Below, piece after piece: positions 29,832-40,655 of a DNA stretch of 40,655 nucleotides. Both the position numbers and the translations under genes were made by a program. Position 1 is the first letter of the stretch. Every line of letters begins with the position of its first letter. Origin of the DNA: an uncultured Cellvibrionales bacterium (GTDB lineage: Bacteria; Pseudomonadota; Gammaproteobacteria; Pseudomonadales; Porticoccaceae); NCBI GenBank assembly GCA_913031645.1, contig CAJWFB010000007.1, positions 1 through 40,655 of the forward strand, written 5' to 3'. The notes below the pieces were generated by a model. The model saw nothing but the letters and a program-made list of their open reading frames with translations, was not told where the DNA came from and did not search any database.

Positions 29832-30323
29832 TTGAATTCTGGGAAAATATTGGTTTCTGACCAGCTGGGTAATCACCTTCTAAAGTTTACTGGCGATGTA
29901 CGGGTGACACTATGTGGAACCTTAAATCGTTATATCGAGTCTATCTTTGGTAGTAAGAATGTAAAACGAGTCGTTGTTGACATGCTCGAAGCTGAAGGTC
30001 TAGATAGCACAACCCTTGGCTTGTTAGCTAAGTTAGGTCTGCATTGTCGGCAGCAATATGGACTAAATATTGAGGTTTTTTGCCAGAACTCAAGTATTCT
30101 CAGAACGCTAGAGAGTATGAGCTTTGATGAGATTTTTGATATTTTTGATCAGCTCCCCGATTTTGATAGCAACACAGATTTCCATGAAATAGGCGCCCAA
30201 GACTTACCTGTGGATGAGCTCCGTCAGCAGGTTCTAGAGGCTCATAAGATACTAGTTCGACTGAGCGATGATAACCATCAAGAATTCCAAGATTTAATTA
30301 AAGCGCTGGAGTCAGGTGACTGA
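29832..30323 (+). CDS. HsbA-like STAS-domain anti-sigma factor antagonist
   Basis: 163 residues from a TTG start; AGGGG (29819-29823) lies 8 nt upstream and supports it. The STAS fold spans residues ~5-110. The phospho-acceptor segment GLDSTTLGLLAKLGL puts the regulatory serine at S59, the expected partner for the phosphatase encoded immediately upstream. A C-terminal extension of ~50 residues, also seen in HsbA-type proteins, carries helical sequence (VDELRQQVLEAHKILVRLSDD). In P. aeruginosa HsbA controls the anti-sigma factor FlgM and biofilm/motility choice; that role is only inferred here. The two genes are one bp apart and surely co-expressed. Confidence 0.82.
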   Translation: MNSGKILVSDQLGNHLLKFTGDVRVTLCGTLNRYIESIFGSKNVKRVVVDMLEAEGLDSTTLGLLAKLGLHCRQQYGLNIEVFCQNSSILRTLESMSFDEIFDIFDQLPDFDSNTDFHEIGAQDLPVDELRQQVLEAHKILVRLSDDNHQEFQDLIKALESGD

Positions 30324-30352: not shown

Positions 30353-31366
30353 TTATGTTTTTTTAGGGGGTGCCGTGCTCTCACGTATTACGAGCTCTGT
30401 TGGAAGAGTATGTTTCATTTTAGTATCCGTTCGTCCTTCAAGTAAGCCATACAGTACGCTCATCGCGGCTCGACCTATTTCTTCAGCGGGCTGCGCGATG
30501 GTAGTAAGTGCGGGATCACAGTATTTAGCAAACTCAATATCGTCAAAACCTGCGACTGATATGTCGTCTGGAACCTTCAGTCCCTGTGCTTTAAGACCTT
30601 GAATAAGACCAATGGCCATTTCATCGTTCATGCAGAAAACTGCAGTGGGACGTCGCTCCATCTGTGCGAAGTATGGTGCCGCTGCAAGACCTGAACTCAG
30701 ACTAAAATCGCCAGACACTAGAAGACTCTCATCGAACTCGATACCAGCGGACTGCAATGCTTGTTGGTAGCCGGCCAGTCGAGCCTTGCTAATGGGGCTG
30801 GCATGCAAATTATCGTCTGGGCTCAAAACGCAGCCAATACGCTCATGACCTAGTGAAATTAAGTAGTCAACAACAGTCTTTGTTGCCGCTTCATTGTCTA
30901 TTTGTACCGTAGGGTAGGGTGCATCGCTAAAGCAATCACAGGCGTTAACGAAAGGGATATGCTCATTGTTACTGGATAGCTCTCCAGGAAAATTGGGGCT
31001 TAACTGGATTACACCCTCTGCTTGTCGTGTTTCGACCCGCTGAAAATACTCTGCTTCGCGTTCTTTGGAGAACCGGGTATCACCCAATAAAACGGCATAC
31101 CCCTTCTGTTGGCCGACATCTTCAATACCGCGAATAACTCTTGAAAAGAATGGATTGGCTATATTGGGAACTAACACAAGAATGGCGTAAGAGCGGGACT
31201 TGAAAAAATTGCGCGCCAGCAGGTTGGGTTTGTAGTTCAGTTGACGAATAGCTTCTTTTACGTCATGAGCGCTTTGCTTTGCCACTTTCTCTGGCGAGTT
31301 AAGGTAACGTGACACCGTAGCAACAGAAACGTTGGCCTTTTTAGCAACTTCTCGAATACTGGACAT
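30353..31366 (-). CDS. LacI-family transcriptional repressor of the adjacent sugar locus
   Basis: 337 residues. The N-terminal helix-turn-helix (SIRE-VAKKANVSVATVSRYLNSPEKVA, residues 3-28) and hinge helix (KPNLLARNFFKSR) are followed by a periplasmic-binding-like sensor domain (YAILVLVPNIANPFFSRVIRGIED ... SVAGFDDIEFAKYCDPALTTIAQP). An AAGGGA ribosome-binding site precedes the ATG. It is divergent from the permease gene, and two TGTAACSSGTTACA palindromes lie in front of the two downstream promoters, as expected for its operators. The inducer is unknown but is probably a sugar or keto-sugar from the pathway. Confidence 0.93.
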   Translation of the reverse strand: MSSIREVAKKANVSVATVSRYLNSPEKVAKQSAHDVKEAIRQLNYKPNLLARNFFKSRSYAILVLVPNIANPFFSRVIRGIEDVGQQKGYAVLLGDTRFSKEREAEYFQRVETRQAEGVIQLSPNFPGELSSNNEHIPFVNACDCFSDAPYPTVQIDNEAATKTVVDYLISLGHERIGCVLSPDDNLHASPISKARLAGYQQALQSAGIEFDESLLVSGDFSLSSGLAAAPYFAQMERRPTAVFCMNDEMAIGLIQGLKAQGLKVPDDISVAGFDDIEFAKYCDPALTTIAQPAEEIGRAAMSVLYGLLEGRTDTKMKHTLPTELVIRESTAPPKKT

Positions 31367-31662
31367 GCAATCCCTTTATTCAGCGTTAGTGCTGATATTG
31401 ACCAGCTGACCTGACAATGGCCAAGCGCCGATGGTTTACACCACGAAACAGTGCGGAAACTTGGTTACGTAAGTTTCTATATGATTATATAACCGGAGCT
31501 AATATAAACTAAGAGCCAAGTTTTATACAAGACGTTTTCTCGAAATGGCCTCGGTTATATAGTTCAAAAATGTAATGTTCAAGGGGCTCTGCAATATCCA
31601 GTAGGTGATTTGGGAAGGAATAAAATCTCTGTAGTCTTTTCAGTTACAGATCTAAATATTTC

Positions 31663-31680
31663 TTGTCTGGCATCAGACAA
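31663..31680. repeat. Palindrome TTGTCTG-GCAT-CAGACAA upstream of the permease promoter
   Basis: Perfect 7-bp arms with a 4-bp centre, ending 6 bp before the -35 box at 31687. This is the position of a class I/II activator site and differs from the LacI-type palindrome. It could instead be an RNA hairpin on a longer transcript. Confidence 0.5.
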
Positions 31681-31686
31681 AAAAGC

Positions 31687-31715
31687 TAGACAAACAAATT
31701 GTAACCGGTTACAGT
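31687..31715 (+). promoter_or_regulatory. Permease promoter with embedded LacI-type operator
   Basis: TAGACA (31687-31692) and TACAGT (31710-31715) are 17 bp apart. The perfect 14-bp palindrome TGTAACCGGTTACA (31700-31713) fills the spacer and overlaps the -10 box, so a bound repressor would block RNA polymerase. The central CG and half-site layout are those of LacI-family operators. Confidence 0.78.
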
Positions 31716-31887
31716 TTTTGATCGATTTCGATCTGTAACAAGTAATCGAATAATTTGAGGCGCGAATGTATGCTAATGCGTTCTTGCACGCGACCAAGAG
31801 CTATCTATTTGTATCTCACTATTGAGAGTGGTGGTAGTTGTTTGGCCAGATGACCATTGTGAAAGTAGCAATCTTCGGAGACAATAA

Positions 31888-33132
31888 ATGATGATCAACA
31901 TGCCTGCTCGGCTGAGTCTTATGATGTTCCTTCAGTTTTTTATTTGGGGCGGCTGGTTCGTAACTCTGGGTACTTTTTTGGCTACCAATTTGGGCGCGAG
32001 TGGAGCGGAGACTGGATTGGCATTTTCTACTCAATCTTGGGGTGCCATTATTGCGCCTTTGGTGATTGGATTGATCGCTGACAGGTATTTTAATGCCGAG
32101 CGGGTTCTAGGGTTTCTGCACATAGCTGGGGCAATATTGATGTATCAGCTATATACCATATCTGATTTCGCTAGTTTTTATCCCATAGTATTGATGTACA
32201 TGATTCTCTATATGCCGACTTTAGCGTTGGTTAATGTCATCGCGTTTAGGCAGATGTCAGATCCGAGCAAAGAATTTTCAAAAATTCGAGTTTGGGGTAC
32301 GGTTGGTTGGATCATGGCTGGCCTTGTTATTAGTTATTTGTTTGCGTGGGATGCGCAGGAAAACGTCGCTAGCGGCCTTCTGAGAAATACTTTTTTGATG
32401 AGTAGTGTGGCTTCCCTTGCGTTAGGGATATTTAGTTTTACTTTACCAAAAACGCCGCCAATGGCCTCCCCAAACGGCAGATTGACGCTAGGAGAAATTG
32501 TCGGCGCGGATGCTTTTTCATTGCTTAAAGATCGTAATTTTTCGGTATTTTTCTTTTCGTCTATCCTTATCTGTATCCCGTTAGCATTTTACTATCAGAA
32601 TGCCAATCCGTTTCTTATTGAGATTGGTGTATCTAATCCCACAGGCAAAATGACTATTGGTCAGATTTCAGAAATTGGATTTATGTTGCTACTGCCAATA
32701 TTTATTCATCGTTTTGGTATAAAGGCAACGCTTCTCGCAGGAATGTTCGCTTGGGTTCTGAGGTATGTTTTATTCGCATTTGGCGATGCTGAGGGTTCTT
32801 GGATGATGCTAATAGTTGGAATCGCGCTCCATGGAATATGTTATGACTTTTTCTTCGTTGCTGGCCAGATCTATACTGATTCAAAGGCGGGAGATAAATA
32901 TAGAACCTCTGCGCAGGGAATGATCACTCTTGCCACCTATGGCTTTGGAATGCTGATAGGGTTTTCAGTAGCGGGGCAGGTAACCGACTTGTTCGCTAAC
33001 GGATCGTCTCATAGCTGGAGAGATATTTGGCTGTTCCCCGCTTGCTTCGCAGCGATTGTGGCCGTTATATTTTTAATTGGATTTAAGGGTGAGCCCCGAT
33101 TGGCCGTTGAAAAGAAAGCGGGTGATGTATGA
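31888..33132 (+). CDS. MFS permease, nucleoside:H+ symporter (NupG-like) family
   Basis: 414 residues, about twelve membrane segments. The opening MINMPARLSLMMFLQFFIWGGWFVTLGTFLATNLGASGAETGLAFSTQSWGAIIAPLVIGLIADRYF is typical of the nucleoside:H+ symporter branch of the major facilitator family, members of which often sit in sugar clusters and probably carry sugars rather than nucleosides. GGAG lies 7 nt before the ATG. The gene overlaps the following oxidoreductase by 4 nt (ATGA). I infer import of a glycoside, keto-glycoside or released sugar across the inner membrane. Confidence 0.85.
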   Translation: MMINMPARLSLMMFLQFFIWGGWFVTLGTFLATNLGASGAETGLAFSTQSWGAIIAPLVIGLIADRYFNAERVLGFLHIAGAILMYQLYTISDFASFYPIVLMYMILYMPTLALVNVIAFRQMSDPSKEFSKIRVWGTVGWIMAGLVISYLFAWDAQENVASGLLRNTFLMSSVASLALGIFSFTLPKTPPMASPNGRLTLGEIVGADAFSLLKDRNFSVFFFSSILICIPLAFYYQNANPFLIEIGVSNPTGKMTIGQISEIGFMLLLPIFIHRFGIKATLLAGMFAWVLRYVLFAFGDAEGSWMMLIVGIALHGICYDFFFVAGQIYTDSKAGDKYRTSAQGMITLATYGFGMLIGFSVAGQVTDLFANGSSHSWRDIWLFPACFAAIVAVIFLIGFKGEPRLAVEKKAGDV

Positions 33133-34265
33133 AGGTACAAAAAATAAGATTGGGATTAATTGGCGGTGGCATGGATTCCATGGTTGGGATTGTGCATCGA
33201 ATAGCTGCCTACTTGGGCGAGCGTTATCACATTGTTGGTGGCGTGTTTAGTTCCGATTATTCAGCAAGTAAATTGTTGGCTAATAAGCTAGATCTTGATC
33301 AATCTAGAATTTATCCAGGGATCGATGAGCTGATTGAGATGGAGTTATCACTACCCAAAGATCAGAGGATTGAGGTTGTCTCTGTATTAACTCCGAACTT
33401 CCTTCACTATTCAGTGGCTAAAAAGCTAATTACTGCTGGCTTTAATGTCATTTGTGAAAAGCCCATGACATTTACTGTTGCCGAAGCTGAAGAGCTCGAG
33501 GTACTTGTTGCAGAGAAGTCAGTAGCTTTCTGTCTAACCCATACTTACACCGGGTATCCTATGGTAAGACAGATGCGAGAAATGATCGCAGCGGGAGCGA
33601 TAGGCAGAATTCAAAAGGTTGATGGGCAGTATTATCAAGGCTGGATCAATCGTTTTATCCACGATGTCGACAAGCGATCACAGGTATGGAGGCTAAGTCC
33701 AGATAAAGTAGGCAATAGTTGTTGCTTTGGAGATATTGGAGTACATGTTTTTAATCTCATAGAGTTCACCACTGGACTGCAAATTGAAAGAGTTTTAGCT
33801 GATGTGAACACCCTTTATGCGGATAATCCTTTAGATGTAGATGGTACAGCGTTAATTAAAACCGCGGATGGCGTAAGTGGTATGATCCGAGCAAGTCAGA
33901 TAGCGACTGGTGAAGAAAATAATATGACACTTTCAGTCTATGGCGAAAAAGGGGGCTTGAAGTGGGAGCAGGAAAACCCTTCGTTGCTGTTTTATCTTTT
34001 AGAGGGACAGCCTGTTCAAGTATTCAAGCCGGGTAATGACTATAACCATTCCTTTGCTCAAGAGAGCAGTAAGTTGCCCTCGGGCCATCCCGAGGGTTTG
34101 GGCGATGCGCTGGGGAATATCTATAGCGGCTTTGCCAAGGCAGTCAGAGGTGAGGTGCATCGGAAAGGATCATTTCCCGGAGTCGCAGATGGCGTGAGAG
34201 GTGTAAGGTTTGTTGAGGCAGTTGTTGAGTCAAATACCCAAGATCAGGCTTGGGTCAGACTCTAG
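33129..34265 (+). CDS. Gfo/Idh/MocA-family oxidoreductase
   Basis: 378 residues, cytoplasmic. The N-terminal Rossmann domain opens IRLGLIGGGMDSMVGIVHRIAAYLGERYHIVGGVFSSD (dinucleotide loop GGGMDSM), and the catalytic EKP motif is in VICEKPMTF. A GFO_IDH_MocA C-terminal sheet domain follows, with DIGVHVFNLIEFTTG carrying the usual active-site D and H. Family members oxidise or reduce a sugar ring hydroxyl with NAD(P). In 3-keto-glycoside loci such enzymes interconvert the 3-keto and 3-hydroxy sugars; that role here rests on the neighbours. It is translationally coupled to the permease. Confidence 0.88.
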   Translation: MKVQKIRLGLIGGGMDSMVGIVHRIAAYLGERYHIVGGVFSSDYSASKLLANKLDLDQSRIYPGIDELIEMELSLPKDQRIEVVSVLTPNFLHYSVAKKLITAGFNVICEKPMTFTVAEAEELEVLVAEKSVAFCLTHTYTGYPMVRQMREMIAAGAIGRIQKVDGQYYQGWINRFIHDVDKRSQVWRLSPDKVGNSCCFGDIGVHVFNLIEFTTGLQIERVLADVNTLYADNPLDVDGTALIKTADGVSGMIRASQIATGEENNMTLSVYGEKGGLKWEQENPSLLFYLLEGQPVQVFKPGNDYNHSFAQESSKLPSGHPEGLGDALGNIYSGFAKAVRGEVHRKGSFPGVADGVRGVRFVEAVVESNTQDQAWVRL

Positions 34266-34427
34266 GGTAAATTGAGCGCGGTTTTTTGTAGCGAAATGAT
34301 CTGCGAAAGTATAACTGCTAAATGGTATTGCTTAGGCAGATTAAGGTGGGATTCACTGGTTAGTGGAGGCTATTTTTAACGCAGGTAGGTAGTAAGATAG
34401 GATGAGGGATGCAATTGCTACGAACGA

Positions 34428-34456
34428 TAGACATCAAAAATGTAACCCGTTACAAT
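34428..34456 (+). promoter_or_regulatory. Second promoter with embedded LacI-type operator
   Basis: TAGACA (34428-34433), 17-bp spacer, TACAAT (34451-34456). The palindrome TGTAACCCGTTACA (34441-34454), imperfect only at its centre, begins 7 nt after the -35 box, the same register as at 31687-31715. It drives the isomerase-like gene at 34538 with a leader of about 75 nt. Confidence 0.78.
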
Positions 34457-34537
34457 GCGTCCGCTTAGGTGTCGTCAGAGCTCACTGCTTTTTAGCAATT
34501 TAACGGCAGTATCAATTGAGATCCATGAGGGATAAAA

Positions 34538-35554
34538 ATGTTTCAAATAAAAGGACCTGCGATCTTTCTAGCCCAATATCTTCCGCCAGCTGCTGAGTCA
34601 GCTAGTTTAGCGGATTTGTGTTCTTGGGCCGCAAGCTTGGGCTATAAAGGTGTCCAGATTCCTACTTGGGATAGCCGCATATTTGATCTTCAGAAGGCCA
34701 GTGAGAGTCAGGCTTACTGCGACGACGTGATGGGTATCTGCCGCGATGCTGGAGTCGAGATCACTGAGCTATCTTCGCATTTCCAAGGTCAGTTGGTGGC
34801 ATGCCACCCTGCCTATAGTAGCTCTCTAGATATCTTGGTCGATCAAGACTTCCAAGATGATAATAGTGCTCGTACCGAATGGGCCACTAATCAGTTAATT
34901 TTTGCAGCCAAAGCCAGTGCGAGATTAAAGCTGTCGGCGCATGCGACTTTTTCAGGGAGCTTGTTGTGGCACACTATGTATCCTTGGCCCCAGAGACCAG
35001 CAGGCTCGGTTGATGAGGGGTTCGCTGAGTTAGCTAAAAAATGGTTGCCCATTTTGGACGCTTTTGATGAGGTGGGAGTTGATCTCTGCTATGAACTTCA
35101 TCCTGGCGAAGATTTACATGACGGAGTGTCCTTTGAACGATTTTTGGATGCTGTGGGTCAGCATTCTCGGGCTAATATTCTTTACGACCCAAGTCATTTC
35201 TTGTTACAGCAACTTGATTATCTAGCGTTTATTGACATCTATCATTCAAGAATAAAAGCATTCCATGTTAAGGACGCAGAGTTTCGTCCGAACGGCCGCT
35301 CTGGTGTCTACGGTGGATACTCTTCTTGGATTGACAGAGCAGGCAGATTTCGATCATTGGGAGACGGCCAAATCGACTTCCGGGCCATTTTTAGCAAGTT
35401 AACTCAGTACGGGTACAACGGTTGGGCTGTTCTTGAATGGGAATGTTGCCTAAAACATCCTGAGCAGGGTGCGAGTGAGGGTGCTCAGTTTATATCTGAC
35501 CGGCTGATCCGGGTTGCGGACCGTAAGTTTGACGATTTCGCCGGAGCTAACTAG
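34538..35554 (+). CDS. Sugar isomerase/epimerase-type TIM barrel (AP endonuclease 2-like), cytoplasmic
   Basis: 338 residues without signal peptide. The xylose-isomerase-like barrel shows the expected metal ligands: glutamate in DLCYELHPGED, aspartate and histidine in ILYDPSHF, histidine in AFHVKDAEF, and the terminal glutamate in WAVLEWECC. The N-terminus GPAIFLAQYLPPA and the SGVYGGYSSWIDRAGRFRSLGDGQIDF segment recall members next to 3-keto-glycoside oxidoreductases. Such proteins isomerise sugars or eliminate/hydrate 3-keto-glucosides. The ATG follows GAGGGAT. It has its own LacI-type operator, 84 bp upstream. Confidence 0.85.
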   Translation: MFQIKGPAIFLAQYLPPAAESASLADLCSWAASLGYKGVQIPTWDSRIFDLQKASESQAYCDDVMGICRDAGVEITELSSHFQGQLVACHPAYSSSLDILVDQDFQDDNSARTEWATNQLIFAAKASARLKLSAHATFSGSLLWHTMYPWPQRPAGSVDEGFAELAKKWLPILDAFDEVGVDLCYELHPGEDLHDGVSFERFLDAVGQHSRANILYDPSHFLLQQLDYLAFIDIYHSRIKAFHVKDAEFRPNGRSGVYGGYSSWIDRAGRFRSLGDGQIDFRAIFSKLTQYGYNGWAVLEWECCLKHPEQGASEGAQFISDRLIRVADRKFDDFAGAN

Positions 35555-35624
35555 AAATAAAGATATGCATGTTTCAAGCTAAAATGTAAGTATCATTTAA
35601 TCAACGTTGTGGAGATCTGGATTG

Positions 35625-36332
35625 ATGAAGGCATCCCCAAATCGAAAATCTGGCTTTTATCTTACTCTGATGCTTTTTTGTAATTTAATGCTCGGATGTG
35701 GGCAGGTGGATAATGCGAATATTCCTTTATCTGCTGAGACCTGGCGCTCTCTATTTGATGGTGAGACGCTTTTGGGGTGGACCGGCCTAAATGGCGCTAC
35801 TATCGGTGACGGATGGGAAGTTGTCGACAGTAATCTTGTATTAACGGCGGGTGGCGCGGGAGATTTAGTCACTTTGGATACATTCCGGGATTTTGAATTA
35901 CAGCTAGAGTGGAAAATTTCAGTGAAAGGGAACAGCGGCATCCTGTATAGAGTCGCTAATGGAGATCAGCCCGTTTGGATGAGTGGTATGGAATATCAAG
36001 TTCTGGATCATGAAGCCTACCCGGGATTAGTGAACTCTAGCCGCACTGCAGGCGCTGTGTTTGATCTATATGCTCCCTCAGCAGAAGTTGTTAATCCGGT
36101 TGGGCAGTTTAATCAGACTCGTATTCGTGTCGAGGGAAATAATGTTGAGCATTGGTTGAATGGCCATAAAATCATTAGCTATACCCTATGGTCTGACGAC
36201 TGGACGGTGCGTTTTGATAACAGTAAATTTGCTACGTATAAAGATTTTGGACGTATTCAGCAGGGTCATATTGCGCTGCAGGATCACGGTGATCAAGTAT
36301 CTTATAGGAATATCAGAATAAAAGAACTTTAA
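35625..36332 (+). CDS. DUF1080 / 3-keto-disaccharide hydrolase-family lipoprotein
   Basis: 235 residues from the ATG at 35625. GGAG (35611-35614) lies 10 nt upstream, and the longer TTG start at 35607 adds six residues with no ribosome-binding site. The lipobox LMLGC places the lipidated cysteine at C25. The domain is a jelly-roll concanavalin-like fold of the DUF1080 family: WRSLFDGETLLGWTGLNGA, DFELQLEWKISVKGNSGILYRV, GMEYQVLDHEAYP, GQFNQTRIRVEGNNVEHWLNG and ending GHIALQDHGDQVSYRNIRIKEL. Characterised members cleave 3-keto-glycosides by elimination or hydrolysis. It is probably anchored in the outer membrane or periplasm. Confidence 0.9.
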   Translation: MKASPNRKSGFYLTLMLFCNLMLGCGQVDNANIPLSAETWRSLFDGETLLGWTGLNGATIGDGWEVVDSNLVLTAGGAGDLVTLDTFRDFELQLEWKISVKGNSGILYRVANGDQPVWMSGMEYQVLDHEAYPGLVNSSRTAGAVFDLYAPSAEVVNPVGQFNQTRIRVEGNNVEHWLNGHKIISYTLWSDDWTVRFDNSKFATYKDFGRIQQGHIALQDHGDQVSYRNIRIKEL

Positions 36333-36411
36333 GGTTTTGACTGCTTTAACCTTCGAGTCTTCATCGCCGACAAAGATTGGTGAGATAAAAATAGTGTTTT
36401 AGGAAAGAATA

Positions 36412-37344
36412 ATGAGTAGAAGAGAATTCTTGTTATATAGTGGCAAGCTAATCAGTTTGGGTCTATTGCCACCCTTTTTGTCCTCTTATGCACCCACTAC
36501 TCAAGCTGGAATCGATAGTTTTTTTGATATTTCATTAGCTCAATGGTCGATGCACCGACAGCTCAGAAGTGGGCAGCTAAAAATGTTGGACTTTCCAGTG
36601 AAAACTCAAAAAATGTTTGATATCTATGCCGTTGAGTACGTCAATCAATTTTTCATGGATAAGGCGAGTGATAAAACATTTCTGAATATGCTTAAACACA
36701 GAGCAGATGACCATGGTGTGAAAAGCCTGTTAATAATGGTTGATGCGGAGGGCCATTTGGGTGCTCCAAACGCGCCCGAAAGGCATGTCGCAGTGGAAAA
36801 CCACTATCAGTGGGTTGCAGCAGCTGAACACTTAGGATGTCACTCTATCCGAGTAAATGCGTCTGGAGTGGGAAGCAAGACCGAGGTAAAAAAAGCATCA
36901 ATCGATGGTCTCCGTCAGCTATCTGAATTTGCCAAAGATTTTGGTATCAACGTCCTCGTTGAAAATAATAAAGGTTATTCTGCCAATGGGAAGTGGTTAT
37001 TGACAGGGCCTTCTGCCAATGGGAAGTGGTTGGCGGATGTTATTCGCGGTGTAGATATGCCGAATTGTGGTTCGCTCCCTGATTTTGGAAACTTTAGTGA
37101 TTATGATCCCTATCAGGGGATGAGGGATTTAATGCCTTATGCGAAGGGAATTAGTGCAAAAAGCCTTGAATTTGATGCTCAAGGTAATGAGGTAAATACT
37201 GATTTTGCAGCAATGCTGGATATCATAAAAGCGGCTAACTATCGTGGCTACATAGGCATAGAGTACGAGGGAGCAGGAGACGAAGATAAAGGGATTCTGG
37301 CGACTAAAAGGTTGTTGAGCCGATTGGGACAGTTAATGTCATAA
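36412..37344 (+). CDS. Exported sugar isomerase/epimerase-type TIM barrel (hydroxypyruvate isomerase-like)
   Basis: 310 residues. The N-terminus MSRREFLLYSGKLISLGLLPPFLSSYAPTTQA has twin arginines before a hydrophobic stretch, a Tat-type signal. The barrel has metal-ligand segments INVLVENNKGY, GSLPDFGNF and YIGIEYEGAGD, the E-D-E pattern of the hydroxypyruvate isomerase/AP endonuclease 2 group. SANGKWL occurs twice because of a 33-bp in-frame duplication (36978-37031). AGGAAAG precedes the ATG. Periplasmic location and context suggest action on a 3-keto-glycoside or its elimination product; substrate is not known. Confidence 0.85.
   Translation: MSRREFLLYSGKLISLGLLPPFLSSYAPTTQAGIDSFFDISLAQWSMHRQLRSGQLKMLDFPVKTQKMFDIYAVEYVNQFFMDKASDKTFLNMLKHRADDHGVKSLLIMVDAEGHLGAPNAPERHVAVENHYQWVAAAEHLGCHSIRVNASGVGSKTEVKKASIDGLRQLSEFAKDFGINVLVENNKGYSANGKWLLTGPSANGKWLADVIRGVDMPNCGSLPDFGNFSDYDPYQGMRDLMPYAKGISAKSLEFDAQGNEVNTDFAAMLDIIKAANYRGYIGIEYEGAGDEDKGILATKRLLSRLGQLMS
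36978..37031 (+). repeat. 33-bp-period tandem duplication inside the exported isomerase-like gene
   Basis: The 21-nt sequence at 36978-36998 is repeated exactly at 37011-37031. The period is 33 bp, so the frame is kept and SANGKWL appears twice eleven residues apart. The perfect identity indicates a recent event. Confidence 0.95.
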
Positions 37345-37450
37345 CTTGAAAAGTGTATTCGCAAATAAAAAAAGCACTATTAAACCGCTTGAGTGACCAA
37401 CCCGATAGTAATGATAGCTGTGAGATTCACAAACAGATGGGAAAGATGTA

Positions 37451-39250
37451 ATGGCGGACTTTAAATCCGGACAGGAAAAAGAATACGATGCGATTGTAGT
37501 AGGCTCTGGTGCAGGTGGAGGAATGGCCGCCTATATTCTGTCAACTGCTGGGCTGAAGGTGTTAATGCTGGAGGCGGGTCGGGATTATGATCCAAGCACC
37601 GAAACCCCGATGTTCAATTTACCCAAAGACGCCCCTCTGCGCGGTGGAAGTACGCCCGATAAGCCCTTTGGTTTTTATGATGCAACGATTGATGGTGGTT
37701 GGCAAGTGCCGGGTGAGCCATACACTCAGGCATCTAATGAATCAGGTAGAAAATTTAATTGGTGGCGTGCTCGTATGCTTGGGGGTCGCACTAATCACTG
37801 GGGTCGAATTTCACTCAGGATGGGCGAATATGACTTTAAGCCATACTCACGAGACGGACTGGGGTTCAATTGGCCTATTGGCTATGAAGATCTTGCTCCT
37901 TACTATGACAAGACAGAAATGTTGATTGGTGTCTATGGGACTAATGAAGGGCTCGAAAATACGCCCAATTCTTCAGAGGGTGTTTTACTGCCACCGCCGA
38001 AACCTCGTGGTTATGAGTTACTTGCAAAAAAGTCGGGTGATAAACTGGGCATTCCCGTCATTCCTGCTCATCTATCGATCCTTAGTGAGCGACTAGATCA
38101 TGAGAATATCCCGCCGAAACTATTTCCAGACAATAAACTAGCACAAGATGTTACGCGCGAATCTATGAAGTCTCGTGCTGCTTGCTTTTGGGCAACTGAC
38201 TGCAGTCGAGGATGTTCAATTCGAGCGAACTTTCAATCAACAACGGTTCTGATTCCACCGGCTCTGGCAACGGGTAACCTAGATATTATTACCGATGCCA
38301 TGGTCCGAGAGGTCACGGTTGATAAAAAAGGTCATGCTACGGGTGTGCTTTATATTGATAAGGTTACTCGGTTAGAAAAATACGCTAAGGCAAAAGTCGT
38401 TGTAGTCGCTGCTAGTGCGGCTGAAACTTCACGAATATTTTTGAACTCTAAGAGCGCGCTATTCCCTGATGGCGTTTCGAACGGCAGTGGGTTGGTCGGT
38501 AAATATCTAATGGACACGGTGGGCGCTGGTGCAGGTGGCCAAATACCCGTTCTTGAAGGGCTACCTCCTCACAATGAGGATGGCGCTTCTGCTATGCACA
38601 TGTATGTCCCCTGGTGGAAGTATCAAGAGCAGTCACGAGGAGAGTTAGACTTCGCACGAGGTTACCATATCGAGCTGTATGGCGGACGCAGAATGCCTTC
38701 TAGTGGAAGTTTCCATGGGTTCGAAAAGTTCACTGAGGGGGCTTATGGTAAAGATTTTAAGGAGGCTATAAGGCGTTACTATGGCTCATTTATCTGGTTC
38801 GACGGTCGTGGAGAAATGATTCCCAACGAGGATAGTTATTGCGAGATCGATAAGCAGCAAGTCGATCAGTGGGGTATACCTGTACTCAAGTTTCATTGGA
38901 AGTGGGGCCAGCATGAAATCAACCAGGCGGCCCATATGCATAAAAGTATTGCTGAGCTTATTGAAGGTATGGGTGGAAAAATGACCTCGCCGGTACATAC
39001 AGATGGCTCAAAGGCAATTTATGACGGCGGTACTATGATTCATGAGGTAGGTACCACTATGATGGGGTCGAATCCGAGAGATTCCGTTCTCAACAAGCAT
39101 TGCCAGTCCTGGGAGATACCAAATTTGTTTGTCACCGACGGTGCGCCATTTGTTTCTAATGCCGACAAAAACCCAACTTTGACGATTATGGCGTTAGCTT
39201 GGAGAACCTGTGATCATATTGTAGATCAGTTAAAGCAAAGGAATATTTAA
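37451..39250 (+). CDS. GMC-family FAD oxidoreductase, catalytic subunit of a periplasmic sugar (glucoside 3-) dehydrogenase
   Basis: 599 residues. The FAD-binding motif GSGAGG is at residues 18-23 (YDAIVVGSGAGGGMAAYILSTAG), the GMC segment MLGGRTNHWGR follows, and the active-site pair is H531 (HEVGTTMMG) and N574 (NADKNPTLTI). C245, C251 and C255 in CFWATDCSRGCS have the C-x5-C-x3-C spacing that binds a [3Fe-4S] cluster in FAD-glucose dehydrogenases such as the Burkholderia cepacia enzyme. There is no signal peptide; by family it is carried out by the Tat signal of the small subunit encoded next. It probably oxidises glycosides at C3. No cytochrome c subunit is seen in the window. Confidence 0.88.
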   Translation: MADFKSGQEKEYDAIVVGSGAGGGMAAYILSTAGLKVLMLEAGRDYDPSTETPMFNLPKDAPLRGGSTPDKPFGFYDATIDGGWQVPGEPYTQASNESGRKFNWWRARMLGGRTNHWGRISLRMGEYDFKPYSRDGLGFNWPIGYEDLAPYYDKTEMLIGVYGTNEGLENTPNSSEGVLLPPPKPRGYELLAKKSGDKLGIPVIPAHLSILSERLDHENIPPKLFPDNKLAQDVTRESMKSRAACFWATDCSRGCSIRANFQSTTVLIPPALATGNLDIITDAMVREVTVDKKGHATGVLYIDKVTRLEKYAKAKVVVVAASAAETSRIFLNSKSALFPDGVSNGSGLVGKYLMDTVGAGAGGQIPVLEGLPPHNEDGASAMHMYVPWWKYQEQSRGELDFARGYHIELYGGRRMPSSGSFHGFEKFTEGAYGKDFKEAIRRYYGSFIWFDGRGEMIPNEDSYCEIDKQQVDQWGIPVLKFHWKWGQHEINQAAHMHKSIAELIEGMGGKMTSPVHTDGSKAIYDGGTMIHEVGTTMMGSNPRDSVLNKHCQSWEIPNLFVTDGAPFVSNADKNPTLTIMALAWRTCDHIVDQLKQRNI

Positions 39251-39251
39251 A

Positions 39252-39887
39252 ATGAGCTTTGAAAAGTTGAATTTGAGTCGCCGTAATGCGCTAAAACTTA
39301 TAGCGTCAACTGCCGCAGCGGTTCCGGTTATGGGGTCCACAGGCAGCACAGAGACTATTAAAAAAGTAGGGTCCGCAAGGCCTGCTACAGACCCTGATCT
39401 ACAGAATCCAGCCATTACTTGGGACTTTTTACTGAACGAGGCAGAGTTGGCGACGCTAGCGACGCTTTGCAGCGTGATAATTCCGGCAGACAACGTTTCT
39501 CCGAGCGCCTCTTCACTGGGGGCTCAGCATTATATTAATGAATATGTGAGCGGGCCTTACGATGATAACAAGGCTGCTCTGATATTGGTCCGAGGTGGTG
39601 TTGTTTGGTTGAACAGTGAGTCTAATAGACGGTTCTCAAAAAATTTTAGTGGCATAACTGATGTGCAGCGATCTAACATTTGCGAGGATATTAAATGGGA
39701 AAAAACAGCCAGCCCGAAGCATCAGATGGGGGCTCGTTTCTTTGCCAAAGTTAGAGATCTTACTTCTACTGCTTTTTATACCACTGAAGAGGGTATGGCA
39801 GATATTGGATATATTGGTAATAGACCTTCAATGACTTTTGAGGGACCGTCTCCAGAGATTTTGAAAAGACTCGGTTTGAATACCTAA
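39252..39887 (+). CDS. Gluconate 2-dehydrogenase subunit 3-family small subunit with Tat signal
   Basis: 211 residues. The N-terminus LNLSRRNALKLIASTAAAVPVMG has the twin arginines R10-R11 and an alanine-rich hydrophobic stretch. The domain (ITWDFLLNEAELATLATLCSVIIPADNVSPSASSLGAQHYINEYVSGPY) is the small (gamma) subunit that binds GMC dehydrogenases and supplies the export signal. It begins one base after the GMC stop, with AAGGA inside the GMC coding end, so the two are coupled. Confidence 0.92.
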   Translation: MSFEKLNLSRRNALKLIASTAAAVPVMGSTGSTETIKKVGSARPATDPDLQNPAITWDFLLNEAELATLATLCSVIIPADNVSPSASSLGAQHYINEYVSGPYDDNKAALILVRGGVVWLNSESNRRFSKNFSGITDVQRSNICEDIKWEKTASPKHQMGARFFAKVRDLTSTAFYTTEEGMADIGYIGNRPSMTFEGPSPEILKRLGLNT

Positions 39888-40014
39888 AAGAAGGTCGGTT
39901 GTCTTTAGTCGGCATCCTTTCACTGGGCCAACTTTAGATTAAAAGATGTCTTTGCTTTTATTCTACTAACTGCCTGTGAATACTAAAAAGTTTAACTGAT
40001 ACAGAAGCGATTTT

Positions 40015-40655
40015 ATGAAAACAATATTTTTTAACCTTATCTTTACTTTTGGATTTATTGCGATGGCCAACGAAGTAGCCCACTCCCAGGATCAAGTGTC
40101 TTTTTCCAATATCGACCGCTATAAAGTCGCTAATATGGAGCTTGCGTTGCTCGCGAGTGAAGAGAATAGAGTTGTGCTTATGGGCGATTCGATTACAGAG
40201 GGATGGAACTGGACAAGTCCTGATTTTCTTAAGGAAACTGGATATATCAACAGAGGGATAGGGGGGCAGACGACGCCTCAGATGTTAGTGCGCTTCAGAG
40301 TGGATGTGATAGATTTGCAGCCTAGGATAGTTGTCATTTTGGCTGGAACCAATGATCTTGCTGGAAATACAGGTTATGCCTCGATAGCCAGTATCTTGGG
40401 GAATATTAAGTCTATGGCGGAGATTGCTAGCCATAATGGCATTGAGGTGATTTTAGCATCTGTGCTCCCTGCAATAGATTACCCGTGGAAACCGGGGCTT
40501 GAACCTGCACCAAAAATTATTGAATTAAATGAAAAATTAAAAACCTATGCACAAAAGAATAATTTTATTTACCTCGATTACTATAGTGCCTTGGTCGATG
40601 GAGAAGGTGGTTTGAAGGTGCCAGATTATACGTCTGCAAATGATCTTGTGCATCC
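40015..40655 (+). CDS. SGNH/GDSL-family hydrolase, exported (3' end outside window)
   Basis: About 213 residues are visible with no stop before the window end. MKTIFFNLIFTFGFIAMANEVAHS is a signal peptide. Block I VVLMGDSITEGW puts the nucleophile at S59; block II is NRGIGGQTT and block III ILAGTNDLA; the last visible residues NDLVHP carry the block V D-x-x-H dyad. It is therefore nearly complete. Family members remove acyl (often acetyl) groups from sugars; in this sugar locus it may deacylate the glycoside substrate. It starts 127 nt after the small subunit, with no operator-like palindrome in the gap. Confidence 0.9.
   Translation, partial: MKTIFFNLIFTFGFIAMANEVAHSQDQVSFSNIDRYKVANMELALLASEENRVVLMGDSITEGWNWTSPDFLKETGYINRGIGGQTTPQMLVRFRVDVIDLQPRIVVILAGTNDLAGNTGYASIASILGNIKSMAEIASHNGIEVILASVLPAIDYPWKPGLEPAPKIIELNEKLKTYAQKNNFIYLDYYSALVDGEGGLKVPDYTSANDLVH

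Follow-up and report, generated by a model that had tools for sequence, protein, structure and literature searches.

An island in an uncultured Cellvibrionales bacterium that may join redox-dependent deglycosylation to the salvage of N-acetylglucosaminyl-asparagine

The stretch of DNA analysed here (the window) takes up all of contig C7 (CAJWFB010000007.1; 40,655 nucleotides) of an uncultured Cellvibrionales bacterium, whose genome assembly (GCA_913031645.1) comprises 1.93 Mb in 122 contigs and is 88% complete; ~12% of the genome may be absent from it. At its right end lie nine genes that an earlier note, made from the sequence alone, had read as a putative redox-dependent deglycosylation pathway: a LacI regulator, a permease, a Gfo/Idh/MocA oxidoreductase, two TIM barrels, a DUF1080 protein, a GMC dehydrogenase with its small subunit and an SGNH hydrolase (Table 1). 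All nine open reading frames (ORFs) lie where that note had placed them and match, in Pfam, the families it had named. We find that this redox module is one half of an island whose other half, on contig C34, may encode the salvage of N-acetylglucosaminyl-asparagine (GlcNAc-Asn), the core of N-glycans.

The window stops where contig C7 stops, within the SGNH gene, and the truncation of this gene at position 40655 is therefore an accident of assembly. The last 55 bases of C7 are exactly the first 55 of C34, and the SGNH reading frame continues across the overlap to a stop near C34:125. A search with a palindrome from the window, described below, led us to this second part of the locus: C34 has two candidate operator sites and then one run of plus-strand genes, up to a right edge marked by a TerB-family gene and a transaldolase gene on the minus strand. 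On the left, the island is flanked by a PP2C-STAS gene pair ending at window position 30323. In 11 of the 14 same-genus loci that have this pair, the site is empty: the next gene after STAS is TerB (62-76% identical), with transaldolase directly behind it and 455-554 bp from STAS to transaldolase. In the other three loci, no transaldolase was found near STAS within the ~4 kb (G011, G013) or ~1 kb (G004) examined. The 24,978 bp (~25.0 kb) between the STAS and TerB genes are therefore an insertion, and the empty sites give independent support to the C7-C34 join; the contiguity of the two contigs and the presence of common sites in both halves are well supported. We considered a horizontal gain of the island; while the insertion is clear, the G+C content of its two halves (44.5% and 45.4%) barely differs from that of the left flank (46.2%).

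Table 1. Genes and candidate operators of the island and its right flank. Positions without a prefix are those of the window; C34 denotes the adjoining contig.
Feature	Position	Strand	Basis or remark
LacI-family repressor, probable island regulator	30353..31366	-	Pfam LacI + Peripla_BP_3
Candidate operator, perfect palindrome TGTAACCGGTTACA (14 bases)	31700..31713		upstream of permease
NupG-family MFS permease, proposed importer of freed keto-sugar or glycal	31888..33132	+	PF03825 (Nuc_H_symport)
Gfo/Idh/MocA oxidoreductase, proposed cytoplasmic 3-keto-glucose reductase	33129..34265	+	Pfam
Second candidate operator, 1 mismatch to the palindrome	34441..34454		upstream of hydratase
TIM barrel 1, 2-hydroxy-3-keto-glucal hydratase homologue	34538..35554	+	AP_endonuc_2; PDB 8RO4
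PF06439 (DUF1080) lipoprotein, proposed 3-keto-glycoside lyase or hydrolase	35607..36332	+	Pfam
TIM barrel 2, twin-arginine start, eliminase-like or isomerase-like fold	36412..37344	+	AP_endonuc_2; structure model
GMC flavoprotein large subunit, proposed glycoside C3 dehydrogenase	37451..39250	+	Pfam
Gluconate_2-dh3 small subunit, proposed GMC co-export partner	39252..39887	+	PF13618; twin-arginine start by eye
SGNH/GDSL hydrolase	40015..40655, continued on C34	+	Pfam; Sec-like start by eye
TonB receptor	C34:477-3248	+	Pfam
Alpha/beta hydrolase	C34:3541-4329	+	Pfam
Asparaginase_2 protein, glycosylasparaginase homologue, putatively exported	C34:4348-5319	+	Pfam, PDB match
CutC	C34:5368-6087	+	Pfam
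GH20	C34:6170-8383	+	Pfam
Sodium-solute symporter	C34:8406-10535	+	Pfam
Beta-lactamase-family hydrolase	C34:10581-11690	+	Pfam
ROK kinase, nearest GlcNAc kinase but below cut-off	C34:11717-12643	+	287.2 bits, cut-off 380
NagA	C34:12621-13805	+	347.6 bits, TIGR00221 cut-off 225.65
NagB	C34:13822-14646	+	271 bits, TIGR00502 cut-off 236.9
TerB-family gene	C34:14702-15148	-	between NagB and transaldolase; outside insertion, present in empty site
Transaldolase gene	C34:15145-15972	-	right flank

The GMC protein has as its best solved relatives a flavin adenine dinucleotide (FAD) glucose dehydrogenase and a fructose dehydrogenase. It carries a C-x5-C-x3-C motif at residue 245, which aligns with cysteines of glucose dehydrogenase that we take to bind an iron-sulfur cluster; the motif is present in all 98 distinct full-length GMC ORFs more than 45% identical to it (the window's own included), whereas two stricter patterns drawn from its C-terminus match only 28 and 40 of them. 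The small subunit gave a single meaningless PDB match (E 0.29). The DUF1080 protein, with an intact frame and an LMLGC lipobox, scores 168 bits on PF06439 (curated cut-off 26.8); of its 14 solved relatives one is named a 3-keto-disaccharide hydrolase domain protein and the rest glycosyl or sugar hydrolases. Localization signals were read by eye from the sequence, without a predictor, and by eye the hydratase, the Gfo protein and the GMC protein show no signal peptide. Cleavage would thus take place outside the inner membrane and hydration and reduction inside it, so that the permease would have to carry the intermediate across. Pfam scans of 19 island genes (nine in the window and ten on C34) found no cytochrome c, no sulfatase and no DUF6379, the last presumably the second subunit of a two-subunit C-glycoside deglycosidase. 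The earlier note had suggested looking past position 40655 for a cytochrome c, a TonB receptor or a sulfatase, and among these genes only the receptor is present.

TIM barrel 1 matches PDB 8RO4, deposited as a 2-hydroxy-3-keto-glucal hydratase, with an E value of 9.7e-156 and 221 of 334 aligned residues identical (66%); by sequence, it qualifies as the hydratase of an Agrobacterium-type pathway. In the published report (PMC10628242), the Agrobacterium tumefaciens operon GlycDH-AtOGE-AtHYD-Gfo is described as encoding a GMC dehydrogenase with a twin-arginine translocation (Tat) partner, an eliminase, a hydratase and a Gfo oxidoreductase, which act by C3 oxidation of a glycoside, elimination of the aglycone, addition of water and reduction to glucose; the hydratase is called putative there, on preliminary evidence. 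Because TIM barrel 1 is so close to the 8RO4 hydratase, our redox module fits this published route, and the pathway proposed in the earlier note gains strength. The likeness extends to the GMC protein with its Tat partner, the hydratase homologue, the Gfo gene and the predicted four-step order. The GMC pair is likened to GlycDH by family and by its twin-arginine small subunit; among the plasmid matches listed for the GMC protein (20 of 597 records), the best was 52% and none came from Rhizobium or Agrobacterium. The Gfo protein is 38% identical to that encoded beside a Rhizobium hydratase, and genes 37-42% identical to it adjoin the hydratase gene in four plasmid clusters and in Microbulbifer clusters; a role as 3-keto-glucose reductase is proposed for it. 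Where the Agrobacterium operon has AtOGE, the island gives no match to an eliminase of that type but has the DUF1080 lipoprotein and a TIM barrel with a Tat-type start, and its redox module is joined to a putative GlcNAc-Asn salvage operon. A second comparison is with Caulobacter, where a DUF1080 protein has been linked with the lacABC dehydrogenase in lactose use (PMC9007349). The two systems share an exported dehydrogenase with a DUF1080 protein nearby; the island differs in having no cytochrome c among the scanned genes and in having LacI, TonB and GlcNAc-Asn genes.

The elimination step may be carried out by the DUF1080 protein or by TIM barrel 2. PDB sequence searches with TIM barrels 1 and 2 returned 4 and 2 chains, respectively, none of them named an O-glycoside eliminase. 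The earlier label of two "isomerase-like TIM barrels" is not supported: the first is a hydratase homologue, and the structure model of the second (pLDDT, the predicted local distance difference test, 83.4; seven sequences) is nearest to 4OVX, after which come C-glycoside deglycosidases interspersed with isomerases and epimerases of sugars. The metal ligands of C-glycoside deglycosidases are Glu, Asp, His and Glu on strands 5-8, by our own mapping from PMC10628242. In TIM barrel 2, with strands taken from the model, E184, D224 and E284/E286 are retained, but the strand-7 motif is SAKS, without the His. Moreover, where aligned homologues have VENH after strand 5, the window has VENN (His to Asn), followed by a 33-bp in-frame tandem duplication (36978-37031) with two exact 21-base copies. 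Judging by the model, an eliminase role for TIM barrel 2 is possible, but so is a different one.

On C34, the Asparaginase_2 protein matches glycosylasparaginase (3LJQ/1P4K) with an E value of ~1e-130 (2e-130), compared with 2e-37 for isoaspartyl peptidases, and by sequence it is the nearer to glycosylasparaginase. Its NHDTIG, whose Thr we take to be the glycosylasparaginase nucleophile, is matched by NHDCIG in the 3LJQ chain; the alignment with the 1AYY beta chain begins at query residue 185. Because the locus continues on C34 with a GH20 gene as well as this glycosylasparaginase gene, the earlier statement that there is no classical glycoside hydrolase here is true only up to the contig end.

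Both halves of the island carry a 14-base palindrome. Within the window, two sites lie within two mismatches of TGTAACCGGTTACA, compared with a mean of 0.05 in shuffled windows. Allowing one mismatch, there are six sites in the source genome (two on C7, two at the start of C34, one on C11 and one on C25) and none for a reversed control; four of these six are in the island, both exact copies among them. The same palindrome precedes the Gfo and GMC genes in Microbulbifer clusters, and LacI genes 46-50% identical to that of the window are found inside homologous clusters. In eight genomes that we scanned, six contain 16 exact copies in total, of which 15 are in or beside the cluster, while the reversed control matched once in one genome (G060). 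No exact copy is found in G025, whose cluster is a different one, or in G061, where a copy differs by one mismatch. A promoter scan of the window gave 16 sites, with 19.2 expected by shuffling, and the fact that both window operators overlap promoter-like sites is therefore no more than suggestive. In our reading, both halves are probably controlled by a single LacI repressor that acts on the palindrome, the pairing of repressor and operator being suggested by conservation. The palindrome is also a simple handle for finding further members of the regulon.

Some copies of the palindrome lie near other genes. The only exact copy away from a cluster is in Microbulbifer variabilis (L145:5220; G058:C28:293219), 321 bp ahead of a gene for a reprolysin-like metallopeptidase (69.1 bits, cut-off 22) whose start resembles a signal peptide; this gene is one of several of its kind in the species, and a TonB receptor gene lies further on. 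A metallopeptidase under this operator would fit a glycoprotein diet, though this is a single case. In M. donghaensis (L037:19380-21663), past CutC, an exact copy stands directly before a second DUF1080 gene and then a Gfo/Idh/MocA-like gene, the pair being transcribed in the opposite direction. In the source genome, a sodium-solute symporter gene lies ~0.4 kb downstream of the one-mismatch copy C25:20114 (L144), and after it comes a PQQ (pyrroloquinoline quinone)-type dehydrogenase gene with a cytochrome domain; the other one-mismatch copy outside the island is at C11:12993. Both may be chance matches or further regulon members.

We scanned 218 relatives with the GMC protein and kept the best 80 loci, which extend up to 10 kb on each side, many of them cut short by contig ends; matches covering less than 35% of a query were dropped. 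The small subunit is found in 77 of these loci, DUF1080 in 30, Gfo in 19 and the hydratase in 18. The set of LacI, Gfo, TIM barrel 1, DUF1080, TIM barrel 2, GMC and small subunit occurs together in six (L037-L042, five Microbulbifer genomes and one metagenome-assembled genome), and three more genomes have it complete (G229) or nearly so (G411, without Gfo in the stretch examined; G049, without TIM barrel 2); because of this recurrence, the grouping is not due to chance. L037-L042 resemble the island in these genes, with GMC 82-84% identical, as well as in a TonB gene and in the operator (one mismatch in L042), and a glycosylasparaginase gene is present in all four with a readable flank. They differ from it in having a FucP-like permease and in that no GH20, NagA, NagB or SGNH gene was seen; nor was an SGNH gene seen in any of the nine clusters. 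Overall, five of the seven relatives with a readable flank have glycosylasparaginase downstream of the cluster's TonB gene. In L037, L039, L040 and L041 it is 73-74% identical, with a BadF-family gene intervening in L037, while in L038 and L042 the contig ends where it would lie. CutC and the BadF-family gene of L037 recur in a Pseudoalteromonas plasmid cluster without glycosylasparaginase. In an order-wide sample of 390 genomes including the source genome, glycosylasparaginase (E <=1e-60) was found in 3 and the GMC protein (E <=1e-100) in 14; two of the three also have GMC, side by side, for which the chance is 0.0035 if genomes are independent, which they are not fully. The glycosylasparaginase of G411 (L166) is in two pieces ~3 kb apart, as if split by an insertion.

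Glycosylasparaginase neighbourhoods on plasmids were examined in four of 130 matching records. On two Hymenobacter plasmids (L155, L156), glycosylasparaginase and CutC have GH92 and a ROK kinase in their vicinity; one of the plasmids adds GH18 and NagB, the other GH2. A Persicobacter plasmid has glycosylasparaginase beside GH2 and mannose-6-phosphate isomerase, and a Sphingomonas plasmid has it beside two TonB receptors, in both cases without CutC or GMC. On a third Hymenobacter plasmid (L159), a GMC pair 47% identical to ours lies one gene from GH92. Unlike in the island, the parts are spread over separate loci in Hymenobacter (L120, L155, L156, L159), and GH92 is present in L155, L156 and L159.

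The permease gene varies between otherwise similar gene sets. Its product is not a true nucleoside permease, since it scores 380.5 bits against the TIGR00889 cut-off of 446.1. In the earlier note, this NupG-like permease was taken as a possible mark of a distinct version of the pathway, an idea that we reject: a 56% identical gene lies on a Hymenobacter plasmid (L120) among GMC, small-subunit, Gfo, hydratase, DUF1080 and c-type cytochrome genes, and the Microbulbifer clusters have a FucP-like permease. The L120 cluster differs from ours in its cytochrome c and in its GMC, which is 32% identical. A FucP-like permease replaces the NupG-like one in all nine module clusters (L037-L042, G049, G229, G411), and across the 80 GMC loci 18 are FucP-like and one is NupG-like. 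This exchange allows the nature of the intermediate that crosses the inner membrane to be tested.

We propose that a redox deglycosylation module is co-regulated with the salvage of GlcNAc-Asn in one ~25.0 kb island, a reading to which we give a probability of about 0.55. The exported GMC/small-subunit pair would oxidize a sugar at C3, and the DUF1080 lipoprotein, perhaps with TIM barrel 2, would cleave the activated glycoside by elimination. The NupG-like permease would import the elimination product; the cytoplasmic hydratase would then yield 3-keto-glucose, and the Gfo/Idh/MocA enzyme would reduce it to glucose. For the right half, the TonB receptor would import a glycan or glycopeptide, the exported glycosylasparaginase would release GlcNAc from asparagine, and GH20, the GlcNAc kinase, NagA and NagB would channel GlcNAc into central metabolism. 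Both halves would then serve a single substrate class, N-glycan-derived glycopeptides. By analogy, GlcNAc-Asn or an N-glycopeptide is our best guess for the substrate; it remains a guess because the plasmid neighbourhoods are suggestive but GH92, GH18 and GH125 are unmatched in the 88%-complete genome. The pathway itself is of a known kind; what seems to be new is that it shares an island, and probably also a regulon, with genes for the salvage of GlcNAc-Asn. In the open-access literature we found no report joining a 3-keto-glycoside pathway with glycosylasparaginase, subscription journals being mostly outside the scope of this search.

Several observations weigh against this proposal. The assignment of the operator to LacI comes from sequence conservation. 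Two relatives, G049 (L019, L020) and G229 (L165), have the redox module and no glycosylasparaginase was seen in them; family matches occur in just seven of the 80 GMC loci, and three of these (L066, L089, L090; 31-37%) are weak and could represent different Asparaginase_2 proteins. Among the GMC relatives, the majority (Gemmatimonadota, Opitutae) give no glycosylasparaginase match. The GH20, NagA, NagB and ROK queries matched in none of the 80 loci, and the GH20/Nag part is thus known only from the source island; a ROK-like gene in L081 does match the Hymenobacter ROK query at 28%. Known enzymes of N-glycan trimming are missing, since no match to GH92 (PF07971), GH18 (PF00704) or GH125 (PF06824) was found in the 88%-complete genome; this sets the island apart from known N-glycan utilization loci, with their GH92/GH125 mannosidases and GH18 endoglycosidase. 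TIM barrel 2 may be damaged, altered or inactive in the source genome. Furthermore, from the homology of the hydratase one would expect a glucosyl product, but the sugars in which N-glycans abound are mannose and GlcNAc.

These points leave room for other explanations. An ordinary glucoside operon with nothing past the window is rejected by the continuation on C34. It is quite possible, if on the doubtful side, that one island and one repressor hold two independent pathways with no joint substrate: like its Agrobacterium and Caulobacter counterparts, the redox module would act on ordinary glucosides or disaccharides, while free GlcNAc, chitobiose or GlcNAc-Asn would be left to the right half. 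The match of the hydratase to that of a glucoside route, the absence of the right half from most GMC loci within the stretches examined, and the two relatives that retain the module without glycosylasparaginase would all be expected on that account. It sits less well with the single palindrome upstream of both halves, with a TonB gene that in Microbulbifer, too, lies on this side of the GMC pair, and with a glycosylasparaginase that is rare and yet adjoins this GMC in two genera; in Pseudoalteromonas, too, CutC and the BadF-family gene flank the redox module. A related and partly overlapping idea sees in the right half an operon for the use of chitin or chitooligosaccharides, with glycosylasparaginase as an incidental member; to us it seems improbable. 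Bacteria that use chitin typically have GH20 and Nag genes, and the island has them with a sodium-solute symporter gene in their midst. On the other hand, the 88%-complete genome gave no GH18 match, two Hymenobacter plasmids have glycosylasparaginase with CutC in the neighbourhood of GH92, and Microbulbifer clusters retain glycosylasparaginase although they showed no Nag genes. Finally, the solved relatives of the GMC protein could mean that the pair is a glucose or fructose dehydrogenase-type enzyme acting on a free sugar, whose product the neighbours use, no glycosidic bond being broken. We consider this very unlikely: DUF1080 and a 66% identical hydratase make most sense downstream of a 3-keto-glycoside, and DUF1080 is in the locus of 30 of the 80 GMC relatives.

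A bolder form of our proposal, which we think unlikely, is that the redox module strips mannose from N-glycans without a mannosidase. Since C3 oxidation and elimination erase the C2 stereocentre, mannosides and glucosides would, by chemical reasoning, give the same 2-hydroxy-3-keto-glucal, from which the hydratase and the reductase would make glucose. The island would then be a complete N-glycopeptide pathway, in which the redox module trims off mannose, GH20 and glycosylasparaginase take apart the GlcNAc2-Asn core and the Nag enzymes process GlcNAc, and it would turn mannose into glucose without an epimerase. Evidence for redox deglycosylation comes from purified enzymes and a small number of genetic studies, and in most bacteria its natural substrates have yet to be named; the genomic setting described here points to the Asn-linked glycans as a candidate class. 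Should the two halves act together, the sugars of glycoproteins would be degraded outside the glycoside hydrolase catalogue, in a way that is easily missed in surveys of carbohydrate-active enzymes (CAZymes).

Two further redox clusters were observed. A same-genus locus (L022, in G025) has a different one, with Gfo, a hydratase (70%), a FucP-like permease and another TIM barrel; its GMC is only 33% identical and has its own Tat-type small protein, and this is the genome mentioned above without an exact operator copy. A plasmid of Sphingobium sp. RAC03, an algal-phycosphere bacterium (L119), carries hydratase and Gfo genes with a TIM barrel-DUF6379 pair, a GMC and an MFS gene, together with three annotated glycoside hydrolases.

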